NCBI GenBank assembly: GCA_026417535.1
Contig: JAOADB010000001.1
Span: 1 to 32,515 of the forward strand
Source of the DNA: Caldilineales bacterium
GTDB taxonomy: Bacteria; Chloroflexota; Anaerolineae; J102
Direction of reading: 5' to 3'
DNA: 32,515 nt
The notes beneath the pieces were generated by a model that had not been told where the DNA came from, did no database searches, and was given only the letters and a program-made list of their open reading frames with translations. Shown piece after piece: positions 24,328 to 30,533 of this stretch (positions are counted from its first letter, which is position 1; every line of letters starts with the position of its first letter). The translations under genes and the position numbers were made by a program.

Positions 24328-24332
24328 AGGAC

Positions 24333-24403
<71 letters not shown>

Positions 24404-24438
24404 ACGAGGAGCAGTGCTCGGCGATGTATTAGGATAGC

Positions 24439-24606
24439 CTATTTGGTCTCGCGATGCAAGCGGTGAGACCGACAACGCGGACAATACTTGCGCAGCTCCA
24501 GACGACCGGTCTGGTTGCGGCGATTTTTGCTGGTAATGTAGTTGCGTTCCTTGCACTCGGTGCAGGCAAGGATGATGTGTACGCGATTCGCACCTTTTTT
24601 GGCCAC
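24439..24606 (-). CDS. rpmG: 50S ribosomal protein L33
   Basis: GTG-start ORF absent from the ORF track: [55 protein letters not shown]. Confidence 0.95.
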
Positions 24607-24654
24607 GGTTTACAGGACTCCGTTGGGAATGGCGTCGCAGGCGACGATTGGCAG

Positions 24655-24686
24655 GGAAAAGGGGAGCAGACCGCAGTCTGCTCCCC
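24655..24686 (-). terminator. Rho-independent terminator downstream of tuf
   Basis: GGGGAGCAGAC-tgcg-GTCTGCTCCCC followed by TTTTCCC on the minus strand. Confidence 0.75.
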
Positions 24687-24716
24687 GACGAATAGACAGC
24701 CTTGAGAGACCGGTGG

Positions 24717-25916
24717 TTATTCCAGGATTTTGGTGATGACGCCAGCGCCGACGGTGCGACCGCCCTCGCGGATGGCAAAGCGAGAGCCGGCCTCCAGCGC
24801 CACGGGCACGATCAGGTCCACCTCGAAGGTCACGTTGTCTCCGGGCATGACCATCTCGACACCCGGCGGCAGCTTCACCGAGCCCGTCACGTCCATCGTC
24901 CGAATGTAGAACTGCGGCCGATAGCCGTTGAAGAAGGGCGTGTGCCGACCACCCTCCTCCTTCTTCAGCACGTACACCTCGGCCAAAAACTTCGTGTGCG
25001 GCGTGATGCTGCCCGGCTTCGCCAACACCTGGCCGCGCTCCACCTCGTCGCGGTCCACCCCGCGCAGCAGCACACCCACGTTCTCGCCGGCCTCGGCGTA
25101 ATCGAGGGTCTTGCGGAACATCTCCAGGCTCGTCGCCACCACCTTCCGGGTGGGTCGCAGCCCCACGATCTCGACCTCACTCATGGGGGTGATGCGGCCG
25201 CGCTCGACACGACCCGTCACCACCGTGCCACGACCCTTGATCGAGAACACGTCCTCGATGGGCATCAGGAAGGGCTTGTCCACCTCCCGCACGGGGATGG
25301 GGATGTACTCGTCAACGACCCGCATCAGCTCCCAAATGCAGGCGTATTCGGGCGCATTCGGGTCGGTGGAGGTGCTCATCAGGGCATTCAGGGCGCTCCC
25401 GCGCACGATGGGCGTTTCATCACCGGGGAAGCCGTAGTTGTCCAGAAGCTCGCGCAGTTCGAGTTCGACCAACTCCAGCAGTTCCGGGTCGTCCATCATG
25501 TCCACCTTGTTCAGGAACACGACCATGGCCGGAACTTCCACCTGGCGAGCCAGGAGGACGTGCTCACGGGTCTGGGGCATGGGGCCTTCCGGCGCCGCCA
25601 CGACAAGGATGGCGCCGTCCATTTGGGCAGCCCCGGTGATCATGTTCTTGATGTAGTCGGCGTGACCGGGGCAGTCCACATGGGCGTAGTGGCGCTTCTC
25701 CGTCTCGTACTCGACGTGGGAGATGGCGATGGTGATGCCGCGGGCGCGCTCTTCGGGGGCGTTGTCAATGGAATCGAAGGGCCGAAACTGCGCCAGACCT
25801 TTGAGGGAGAGGACCTTGGTGATGGCGGCGGTCAGGGTCGTCTTGCCGTGGTCAATGTGGCCGATGGTGCCCACGTTGACGTGGGGCTTCTTGCGCTCAT
25901 AGACGGGCTTGGACAT
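24717..25916 (-). CDS. tuf: elongation factor Tu
   Basis: [55 protein letters not shown]. Confidence 0.98.
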
Positions 25917-25971
25917 GCGTTGCTACTCCTGAAGTCTGCTTTGAGGATACAAAACAGTAACAGGCCTTTGG

Positions 25972-26009
25972 CGTTTTTTGGCCGCCCGTGGAAGGGCGGC
26001 CAAAAAACG
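25972..26009. other. 16-bp perfect hairpin between tRNA-Thr and tuf
   Basis: cgttttttggccgccc-gtggaa-gggcggccaaaaaacg; T-run precedes and A-run follows on both strands. Confidence 0.85.
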
Positions 26010-26028
26010 GAAACCGTATTCAGGATGG

Positions 26029-26101
<73 letters not shown>

Positions 26102-26147
26102 AAGAGAAGCGAGAGCGCAGGGGGCTAACCACCTGAGTTCTCGGAAG

Positions 26148-26233
26148 TGGGCCGGGCAGGACTCGAACCTGCGAAGGCGCTATCGCCAGCGGATTTACAG
26201 TCCGCACCCTTTGCCGCTCGGGACACCGACCCA
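26148..26233 (-). tRNA. tRNA-Tyr (GTA)
   Basis: Minus-strand cloverleaf with long variable arm; anticodon loop CTGTAAA, anticodon GTA. Confidence 0.96.
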
Positions 26234-26307
26234 ATTGCAGATTATAGCAGAACAGGCCGGAATAGGCAACATCCGGACGGCCGTTTGTAAAGGGTTCGGC
26301 GCCAAAA

Positions 26308-26379
26308 GCCGACGAAGGGACTCGAACCCATAACCCGCGGTTTACAAAACCGCTGCTCTGCCGGTTGAGCTACGTCGGC
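26308..26379 (-). tRNA. tRNA-Thr (TGT)
   Basis: Minus strand GCCGACGTAGCTCAACCGGCAGAGCAGCGGTTTTGTAAACCGCGGGTTATGGGTTCGAGTCCCTTCGTCGGC; anticodon TGT. Confidence 0.96.
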
Positions 26380-26399
26380 TGGCGTAGTATCAACCGTTT

Positions 26400-26507: not shown

Positions 26508-26996
26508 ATGACCGCTTTCGTCCCTCCCCATCGCCACGATCCCAACCCCTTTCCGCCTTCCGACGATCCCACCTTCACCCTCGAACAGCCTGACGGCAGC
26601 GCCGTCCGGCTGACGGTGGCCGATCTCCGCGCCTTGCCCGCCGTGACCGTGCCCAATTGCTACATCGTCAGCACCGGCCACGGCACGTCTGGGCCTTTTA
26701 CCTTCGGCGGCGTCCTGGTACGGGACCTATTGGCAGCCTATCTCCCTGCCGAGATGCCCTGGTCGGCCGTCGTCGTCCTCAGCGGCGATGGATTTGGCAC
26801 GCGGCTATCCGCGGCCGAAGTGCAAGCGGAACCGGTCCTGCTGGCCTATACGGTTGACGGCCGGCCGCTGACCCGTCGGGAGGGGCTGGTGCGGTTGATC
26901 GTGCCCGGCGAAACCGACGATGCCCTCAAGCAGGTCAAATGGGTGGAAAGGGTGATGGTGATTACAGAATTCGCGCGAGATCGCGCAGGGCCATGA
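26508..26996 (+). CDS. small molybdopterin-binding-domain (sulfite oxidase-like) protein
   Basis: TFTLEQPDGSAVRLTVADLRALPAVTVPNCYIVSTGHGTSGPFTFGGVLVRDLL...VVVLSGDGFGTRLS...LIVPGETDDALKQVKWVERV resembles the oxidoreductase molybdopterin-binding domain. Confidence 0.75.
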   Translation: MTAFVPPHRHDPNPFPPSDDPTFTLEQPDGSAVRLTVADLRALPAVTVPNCYIVSTGHGTSGPFTFGGVLVRDLLAAYLPAEMPWSAVVVLSGDGFGTRLSAAEVQAEPVLLAYTVDGRPLTRREGLVRLIVPGETDDALKQVKWVERVMVITEFARDRAGP

Positions 26997-29160
26997 ACCA
27001 CTCCTGATGGGGCCGTTCGGCGGGCCAAGCGATCTCGGCCAGGGCCTCGCTCAACTCGGTGGTGACGATATGCTTGCCGCGCAGGCCGATGGTGTGGAAA
27101 CCGGCCTGATCGTGCATGCGCAGCAGGGCTTCCACAGCCGCCTTGCCCAACCGTGCCGCCAGGATGCGGTCAAACGGCGAAGGTGAGCCACCTCGCTGCA
27201 CATGGCCCAGGGTCACCGAGCGCACATCGAACAGGCCGCTGCCTTCGGCGTCGAGGATACGGCGGATCATTTCGGTGGTGTAGGCAGGCGAGGCCCGCTC
27301 GTTGTAGATGAGGATGGCCAAACGTTTGCCCGCTTGAAAATCCCGGCGCAGACGCTCGGCGTCGGCCGCCAGGCGTTGCAGGGTCACCCCTTCTTCGGGC
27401 AGGTAGACCTGCTCGGCGCCACTCGCCAGCGCCGCCATCAGGGCCAAATAGCCACAATCGTAGCCCATCACCTCGACGACGTAGGCCCGTTTGTTGGCGC
27501 CGGCCGTGTCCTTGACCTTGTCAACGGCGGCGATGATGTTGTTGAGGGCGGTGTCGGCGCCGATGGCGAAGTCGGTACCGGGCAAGTTGTTGTTGATGCT
27601 GGCCGGGACCACGAGGACGGGGATCTGCATGGCCGGATAGCGGCGATAATGGGCGGCCATGACCTCGGCGTTTTGATAGGCGTCCATGCCGCCAATGAGG
27701 ATCATGGCCGTGACGGCATGCTCGTGCAGGACCGCAGCCAGCCGGTCCAAGTCGCCGGGCTGAAGCAAATAGCGCCCCGATCCCAGCTCCGAACCCCCGC
27801 GCGCGGCCCAACCGCTCACCGTCATCCACGCCAGCTCGATCACATCCCCGCGCAAAAGCCCTTCCAGACCGTATTGGGCGCCGAGGACGCGGTAGCCGTG
27901 GTCGCGGGCCACGCGCGTCACTACTCGCACGCAGGCATTCATCCCCGGCGCGTCGTGCCCGGCCGTCACGACCAGGATGGTGCCGGCATGGGTGTCCTCC
28001 TTCGGAGCCACCTCGGTCAGCAATCGCAACAGGGCCAGCTGATCCTGGAAGCTGGGGCCGCGCAAAGTCAGGGCGGTCTCGTAATCGCCGGCGTCAATGC
28101 ACTTGCCCACGGCTTGGCTCTTCTCCACCACCTCCACCAAAGGGGTGCTCTGCACCTCATTGTTGACGATGCCGAGAAAGCGCGGGGGCTGCTCGGCGCC
28201 GTGGGCCAGCAGATCCTCGACCGCAGCCGCGCCTAGGCGGGTGGCCAGGATGCGGTCGTAGGCGCTGGGCGAGCCGCCCCGCTGCACATGGCCGAGCACG
28301 GTCACACGGGTTTCGGCGCCCAGTTGCTTTGTGAGGATGTCGCTGACGGTGGCCGCCGAAAGGGGCAGGCCGTCGGGATGGCGAGCGCCTTCGGCCTGGA
28401 TGACGATGGCATGTTTGCGCCCCGCCTCGCGACCGCGACGCAGGGATGCCACCATCTCCTGGTGCCACCGCGGCTTCAACTCCTCTTCGGGGATGATGAT
28501 CCAGTGCGCGCCCGAAGCCAGCCCGCCGGCCAGGGCCAAGTAGCCGCAATTGCGGCCCATGACCTCCAGGACGAAGGTGCGCTGGTGGGCCGAAGCCGTG
28601 CTGACGAGCTGATCGGCGGCCTCGACGATGCGATGCAGGGCCGTATCGGCGCCGATGGACATGTCGGTGCCGTAGGTATCGTTGTCAATGGAACCGGGCA
28701 GGCCGACAACGGCCAGGGTGGGGCGGGCATCGGCGGGCAACTCGATTTCGCCCGCGGTTGCCGCCTCGCGCAGCAGGTCGGGCCATTCCTCGGCCAGGAT
28801 GCGGGCGCCGGTCAACGACCCATCGCCGCCGATGACCACGAGACCGTCAATCCTGTGGCGGTAGAGGTTGACGGCGGCCTTGCGCCGGCCTTCGCGGGTG
28901 CGGAACTCCTGGGACCGGGCCGTGCCCAAAACGGTGCCGCCCTTTTGCAGGATACCGCCTACCGACCACCAGTTCATCGGCTCGATGGCCTCACCCCCCT
29001 CAACGGCCCCTTGCCAACCGTTGTGAATGCCATACACCTGGAGGCCGTGGTACAGGGCCATGCGCACCACCGCGCGCACGGCTGCGTTCATCCCCGGTGC
29101 ATCACCCCCGCTGGTGAGCACTGCAATGGCGCGGACTTTGCCTGACGTCATGGAAGCCAT
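26962..29160 (-). CDS. fused double 6-phosphofructokinase (tandem PFK domains)
   Basis: N half: LTSGGDAPGMNAAVRAV, GGDGSLTGA, PGSIDNDTYGTDMSIGADTALHRI, HQRTFVLEVMGRNCGYLAL, GHVQRGGSPSAYD. C half: VTAGHDAPGMNACVRVV, GGMDAYQNA, PASINNNLPGTDFAIGADTALNNI, MGYDCGYLAL, GHVQRGGSPSPFD. Confidence 0.95.
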   Translation of the reverse strand: MASMTSGKVRAIAVLTSGGDAPGMNAAVRAVVRMALYHGLQVYGIHNGWQGAVEGGEAIEPMNWWSVGGILQKGGTVLGTARSQEFRTREGRRKAAVNLYRHRIDGLVVIGGDGSLTGARILAEEWPDLLREAATAGEIELPADARPTLAVVGLPGSIDNDTYGTDMSIGADTALHRIVEAADQLVSTASAHQRTFVLEVMGRNCGYLALAGGLASGAHWIIIPEEELKPRWHQEMVASLRRGREAGRKHAIVIQAEGARHPDGLPLSAATVSDILTKQLGAETRVTVLGHVQRGGSPSAYDRILATRLGAAAVEDLLAHGAEQPPRFLGIVNNEVQSTPLVEVVEKSQAVGKCIDAGDYETALTLRGPSFQDQLALLRLLTEVAPKEDTHAGTILVVTAGHDAPGMNACVRVVTRVARDHGYRVLGAQYGLEGLLRGDVIELAWMTVSGWAARGGSELGSGRYLLQPGDLDRLAAVLHEHAVTAMILIGGMDAYQNAEVMAAHYRRYPAMQIPVLVVPASINNNLPGTDFAIGADTALNNIIAAVDKVKDTAGANKRAYVVEVMGYDCGYLALMAALASGAEQVYLPEEGVTLQRLAADAERLRRDFQAGKRLAILIYNERASPAYTTEMIRRILDAEGSGLFDVRSVTLGHVQRGGSPSPFDRILAARLGKAAVEALLRMHDQAGFHTIGLRGKHIVTTELSEALAEIAWPAERPHQEWFMALRDLARIL

Positions 29161-29291: not shown

Positions 29292-30533
29292 TCAGGACGA
29301 CACCCCGCGACGGGGCGGCGGTCCATCCAAACCCGCAGCCCGGCGCAGTTCCTCGGCCCGATCGGTGTGCTCCCAAGGCAGGTCAATGTCGGTGCGACCG
29401 AAGTGGCCGTATGCGGCCGTCTGCCGGTAGATGGGCCGGCGCAGGTTCAGGTCGCGGATGATGGCGCCCGGCCGTAGGTCGAAATGCTCACGCACGAGCC
29501 GCTCGATGAGGGCATCATCCACCTTGCCCGTGCCGAAGGTCTCGATGCTGATGCTTAGAGGTTCGGCCACACCGATGGCATAGGAAATCTGGATTTCGCA
29601 GCGGTCGGCCAGGCCGGCGGCGACGATGTTCTTGGCCACCCAACGGGCCGCATAGGCGCCGGAACGGTCCACCTTGGTGGGGTCTTTGCCCGAAAAGGCG
29701 CCGCCGCCATGCCGACCGACGCCGCCGTAGGTGTCCACGATGATCTTGCGACCGGTCAAACCGGCATCGCCCAGCGGACCACCCAGGACAAAACGCCCCG
29801 TCGGGTTGACGAAAATCTTGGTCGAGCCGTTCATCCAACGGCCCAGGACCGGCTCGATGACATATTCGATGATATCGGCCCGGATCTGCTTTTGTTCGAT
29901 TTCCGGCGCATGCTGGGCCGACACGAGTACGGTATCCACCCGTTGGGGCTTGCCGTAGCTGTACTCGACCGTAACCTGGGCTTTGCCGTCGGGCCGCAGA
30001 TAGGGCAGGATGCCGGTCTTGCGCACCTCGGCCAGCCGTCGGGTCAGGCGATGGGCCAAGCTAATGCTGAGGGGCATGAGTTCGGGCGTTTCGTCGCAGG
30101 CAAAGCCCACCATCATCCCCTGGTCGCCGGCGCCGATGAGGTCAATCTCGGCATCGGTCATCCGCCCTTCCTTGGCCTCGAGGGCCCGGTCCACCCCCAT
30201 GGCGATGTCGGGCGATTGGGCGGCGATGGCCGACTGGACGGCGCAGGTATCGGCATCGAAACCGTAGGCGCTGCAGGTGTAGCCGATCTCGCGGATGGTC
30301 TGGCGCACGAGCTGGTCGAAGTTGACGACGGCCGTGGTGGTAATTTCGCCCAGCAGCATGACAAAGCCGGTCTTGGTCGCCGCCTCGCAGGCCACGCGGG
30401 CGTAAGGGTCCTGGGCCAGGCAGGCATCCAGCACGGCATCGCTGATCTGGTCGCACATCTTGTCGGGATGCCCTTCCGTCACCGATTCGCTGGTGAAGAA
30501 GAGCTTGGGCGAACGCATGAAGGTGGTACTCAT
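29292..30533 (-). CDS. metK: S-adenosylmethionine synthetase
   Basis: [72 protein letters not shown]. Confidence 0.98.

Follow-up and report, generated by a model that had tools for sequence, protein, structure and literature searches.

A double, tandem-fused ATP-type 6-phosphofructokinase (PFK) of 732 aa is encoded on the minus strand at 26962..29160 of the window, the whole 32,515-nucleotide stretch of Caldilineales (Chloroflexota) DNA analysed here. The reading that we prefer, with a probability of roughly two in three, is that this bacterial protein and the duplicated PFK-1 of animals and fungi are orthologues, descended from a fusion in bacteria that eukaryotes later acquired. In the window protein, the N half would catalyse the ATP-dependent reaction and the C half would act as a sensor.

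The duplication in PFK-1 has been described as a eukaryotic event that gave rise to complex regulation (PMC7702303, 2020; PMC12203962, 2025). The existence of a double enzyme in Chloroflexota is not new, because Cagg_2702 of Chloroflexus aggregans was reported in 2021 as a eukaryotic-type protein of 747 aa, close to double the length usual in bacteria, that has relatives across many Chloroflexota and in few other bacteria and is transcribed at a low level compared to the single-domain PFK (PMC8004040). In the literature searched, no study turned up in which bacterial doubles serve to root the duplication; earlier work is possible, and the classic Bapteste 2003 analysis lies outside that coverage. 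Prior literature on the clade, named originally as a finding that would refute the prediction, thus exists in part. The rooted phylogeny together with the deep position of the window lineage may be the new elements.

Results

An intact double PFK gene in a bacterial setting

The ORF at 26962-29160 is intact and encodes 732 aa plus a stop. Its mechanical start is a TTG at 29376, upstream and within metK, and the homologous protein runs from the ATG at 29160. As originally predicted, this single ORF contains two PFK domains: two PF00365 domains lie in tandem in one chain, and the TIGR02478 model (6PF1K_euk) gives a single continuous match spanning residues 10-732 that, at 825.9 bits, exceeds the cut-off of 708.4. 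Among PDB sequences, human and rabbit PFK-1 match best over the full length (626 bits, E 5e-187), the top-scoring single-domain PFK from bacteria reaches 279 bits, and chance is excluded as the source of the resemblance to PFK-1. The window PFK is the sole PF00365 protein found in its 79%-complete genome.

The gene is flanked by a molybdopterin-binding ORF, tRNAs and EF-Tu on one side, and by metK and ahcY on the other. The nearest neighbour, on the plus strand at 26508-26996, carries an oxidoreductase molybdopterin-binding domain (PF00174), runs towards the PFK gene and shares 35 bases with its 3' end. On the minus strand at 24329-26380 follow, in order, tRNA-Thr(TGT), tRNA-Tyr, tRNA-Thr(GGT), EF-Tu and tRNA-Trp, an order that resembles the tRNA-tufB arrangement of E. 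coli.

The window sits in a draft genome of 482 contigs, a setting in which a PFK-1-like gene might be suspected of being eukaryotic contamination of the assembly. However, the flanks (EF-Tu, tRNAs, metK and ahcY) are bacterial, intact copies with 76% and 71% identity are present in two genomes of the same genus, and copies occur in most genomes of the family. These flanks and the intact copies across genus and family refute contamination, which we regard as vanishingly improbable.

The double enzyme was originally noticed in one bacterium; it proved real but not restricted to this bacterium, being widespread in Chloroflexota and present in some other phyla. Its distribution is patchy, with 32 of 301 sampled phylum genomes passing the TIGR02478 cut-off. 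A scan of named genomes, which used an alignment of C halves as query and whose phylum and genome lists are lower bounds, recovered doubles in at least Arsenicicoccus, Mycolicibacterium agri, Actinomyces, Schaalia, Propionibacterium and Ornithinimicrobium among Actinomycetota, in at least Contendobacter, Competibacteraceae and Accumulibacter among Pseudomonadota, and in at least one Aminicenantes MAG. Other Chloroflexota families reach about 1000-1038 bits on TIGR02478, versus 826 for the window PFK, and represent what we call the typical bacterial type; one of these higher-scoring families is probably that of Chloroflexus.

A predicted catalytic N half and a C half that has lost its ATP-site residues

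The protein can be divided into an N half, the putative catalytic domain (residues 1 to about 356; 28093..29160, minus strand), linker helices (residues about 357-393; 27982..28092, minus strand), placed from the AlphaFold model and the alignment split point, and a putatively non-catalytic C half (residue 394 to the end; 26962..27981, minus strand). The AlphaFold model, built from a 28-sequence bacterial alignment, has a mean pLDDT of 89.5, and the PDB structures closest to it are those of human PFKP and PFKL (TM-scores of 0.95-0.96, rmsd of 1.6-1.8 A).

All the motifs named in the original prediction are present, namely GGDGS, GSIDND and MGRNCGYLAL in the N half and GGMDAY, SINNN and GHVQRGGSP in the C half. 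An active site of ATP type is indicated by GGDGS (111-115) and GSIDND (156-161), GGDG and PG.IDND being the ATP-type letters of the PFK family. Human and yeast PFK-1 have the same residues at the catalytic and fructose 6-phosphate (F6P) site positions examined in the N half, and they share the D, G and S of GGDGS. The C half has lost its ATP-site residues (GGMDAY), and Asn stands in place of its catalytic Asp (SINNN), but it keeps the equivalents of human R481, R576, E639, R665 and H671 in the sugar-phosphate pocket, residues that belong to the pocket for fructose 2,6-bisphosphate. The same five residues are retained in other bacterial doubles, with one exception seen (L012, where R481 is Tyr). 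Judged by these residues, the protein is best read as a PFK that uses ATP, in which the N half would carry out catalysis and the inactive C half would hold a sugar-phosphate pocket but no ATP site; a role of the C half as an allosteric site would fit.

The C halves of two other doubles, L024 and L062, read TIDND, so that the catalytic Asp is kept though the ATP-site motif is lost. In view of this intermediate pattern, bacterial doubles seem to have lost the second active site step by step.

The window PFK shares with eukaryotic PFK-1 (human PFKP, PFKM and PFKL; yeast Pfk1 and Pfk2) the two-domain architecture, the catalytic N half and the C half with its ATP site lost and its sugar-phosphate pocket kept, in addition to fold and duplication. 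It differs within the C half at three positions in human PFKP numbering (585 is Tyr not Gly, 540 is Asn not Ser, and 674 is Arg not Gln). It also lacks the C-terminal regulatory tail of about 20 residues described for mammalian PFK-1 (PMC12203962), ending in LARIL, aligned to residue 789 of 812 in human 4xyj. Compared with single-domain ATP-PFK (PfkA, Bacillus/E. coli type), its N half has the same fold and active site, whereas PfkA has a single domain, one effector site, and Thr at position 125 (GTIDND). At this position (Bacillus numbering), all double N halves compared have Ser (GSIDND) where the single-domain reference has Thr, and this Ser may be a hallmark of the double enzymes.

One duplication-fusion shared with animals and yeasts

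For the tree of halves (78 rows), 28 doubles, 23 bacterial and 5 eukaryotic, were split in halves and combined with 22 rows labelled single-domain. The eukaryotic sequences were taken from PDB alignments and number six overall (two human and four yeast). One row labelled single-domain, L098, proved to be a double cut by a contig end and was dropped from later trees. The N halves, whether bacterial, animal or yeast, all fall into a single clade (100/97) and the C halves all fall into a second one (100/100); each clade includes the corresponding eukaryotic halves. Because of this separation, the bacterial, animal and yeast doubles have one duplication-fusion in common, from which both halves of the window PFK descend. 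The smaller set used for the duplication tests below favours, at a level short of firm support, N and C halves as each other's closest relatives (92/89) over an origin from two different single PFKs. The likeness to animal PFK-1 that had been noticed in the motifs thus extends to homology of the whole protein, each half grouping with the matching animal or yeast half.

A duplication-fusion of PFK is simple in principle, and bacteria and eukaryotes could have fused two PFKs independently. Besides the grouping of each half with its eukaryotic counterpart, however, forced-duplication tests on a smaller set than the 78-row tree speak against such convergence. Forcing eukaryotic N and C halves together cost 169 log-likelihood units (AU p 1e-39), and forcing window-type N and C halves together cost 149 (p 8e-35), which also strongly rejects a recent lineage-specific duplication, the finding named originally as fatal to a link with eukaryotes. 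Convergence is refuted by these tests under the model used, and we consider it scarcely credible.

The window lineage branches before eukaryotic PFK-1

Rooted trees were made from both halves joined, with single-domain PFKs as the one kind of outgroup. The first split separates the window type from all other doubles including eukaryotes (100/99), and the same split appears in a second data set, to which window-type rows were added and from which long-branched doubles were left out. The window type comprises the window's family, a double of the same class (L015) and the Chloroflexota double L074; among the other named tree neighbours, L063 belongs to Anaerolineae. As one clade it receives 47/23 in the first data set and 83/74 in the second, the alternative being a series of early branches. 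Eukaryotic PFK-1 groups with the remaining bacterial doubles to the exclusion of the window type, and no one bacterial double is resolved as its exact sister. Human PFKP is 52% identical to the Chloroflexota double L016 and 45% identical to yeast Pfk1.

The lineage of the window gene therefore branches before the split of eukaryotic PFK-1 and the other bacterial doubles. Because it branches outside both the eukaryotes and the typical bacterial group, the window PFK is not a eukaryotic gene but a homologue from a sister lineage; a clade of window type and eukaryotes is rejected (p 0.013). Cagg_2702 is the same kind of protein from the same phylum, but its family probably falls among the typical bacterial type, whereas the window PFK belongs to the deeper-branching one.

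The duplication could instead have occurred in an early eukaryote, with uptake by bacteria perhaps more than once. PFK transfers have been recorded in both directions (PMC12203962), the two papers cited above for the duplication call it eukaryotic (PMC7702303 and PMC12203962), and single-half tests on the 78-row tree are compatible with eukaryotes as the first branch and bacterial doubles as one clade (N half p 0.24, C half p 0.47). However, the deepest branch lies among bacterial doubles, with eukaryotes beside the typical bacterial type, and the nesting would need two separate transfers out of eukaryotes. When the halves are combined, a position of eukaryotes outside all bacterial doubles is rejected in both data sets (p 0.019 and 0.0067). 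Transfer from eukaryotes to bacteria is thus unlikely, though it carries more weight than the other rivals.

The presence of doubles in several bacterial phyla and in eukaryotes might also suggest inheritance from a very ancient double PFK, predating the split of bacteria and eukaryotes and followed by massive loss. Against this stand the patchy distribution and the gene tree, which does not recover each phylum as a clade. Actinomycetota and Pseudomonadota doubles nest among Chloroflexota doubles, which indicates spread by transfer. We regard ancient inheritance as quite improbable.

The original prediction that this gene bears on the origin of the eukaryotic duplicated enzyme, or on gene transfer, is supported, because its halves group with eukaryotic halves and separate duplications are rejected. 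The trees favour a bacterial origin of the doubled PFK followed by transfer to eukaryotes, which we hold with moderate confidence, as the eukaryotes sampled are animals and yeasts and others could branch deeper.

Discussion

In the history that we propose, bacteria that probably belonged to Chloroflexota or stood close to that phylum would have duplicated and fused the gene, and at least the ancestor of animals and fungi would have received it from a bacterium. The N half is predicted to phosphorylate F6P with ATP. The C half, having lost ATP binding and chemistry, may have kept its sugar-phosphate pocket to sense a fructose phosphate, for which F6P and fructose 1,6-bisphosphate are the probable candidates. 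A crystal structure of human PFKP contains fructose 1,6-bisphosphate in the corresponding C-half pocket (PMC12203962). Fructose 2,6-bisphosphate is probably not the ligand, because PFK-2 (PF01591) had no match in 21 phylum genomes, nearly all of them picked for having the double, in a search without a positive control above the family cut-off. PFK-2 was likewise not detected in the window organism, a further difference from eukaryotic PFK-1. Eukaryotes would later have tuned the pocket to fructose 2,6-bisphosphate.

The double enzyme may provide a regulated and irreversible step with ATP alongside a reversible one with PPi, because close relatives also encode a separate PPi-type PFK, which reads GGDD and KTMDND. 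A gene of this type directly adjoins the double ATP-type gene at L063, at L098 and on contig C168 of genome G053 (L148 with L022); some Chloroflexota therefore carry ATP-type and PPi-type enzymes side by side.

The fullest form of this account, to which we give even odds, is that bacteria invented the doubled PFK-1 of animals and fungi and an early eukaryote acquired it, that its regulatory C half evolved in bacteria to sense F6P or fructose 1,6-bisphosphate at a time when signalling by fructose 2,6-bisphosphate did not yet exist, and that the window lineage is the deepest surviving branch. If the duplication is bacterial, loss of the second active site and its turn into a regulatory pocket would predate eukaryotes, and bacterial enzymes could be used to ask what the pocket first sensed. 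Animals and fungi would then owe one more central glycolytic enzyme to bacterial transfer.
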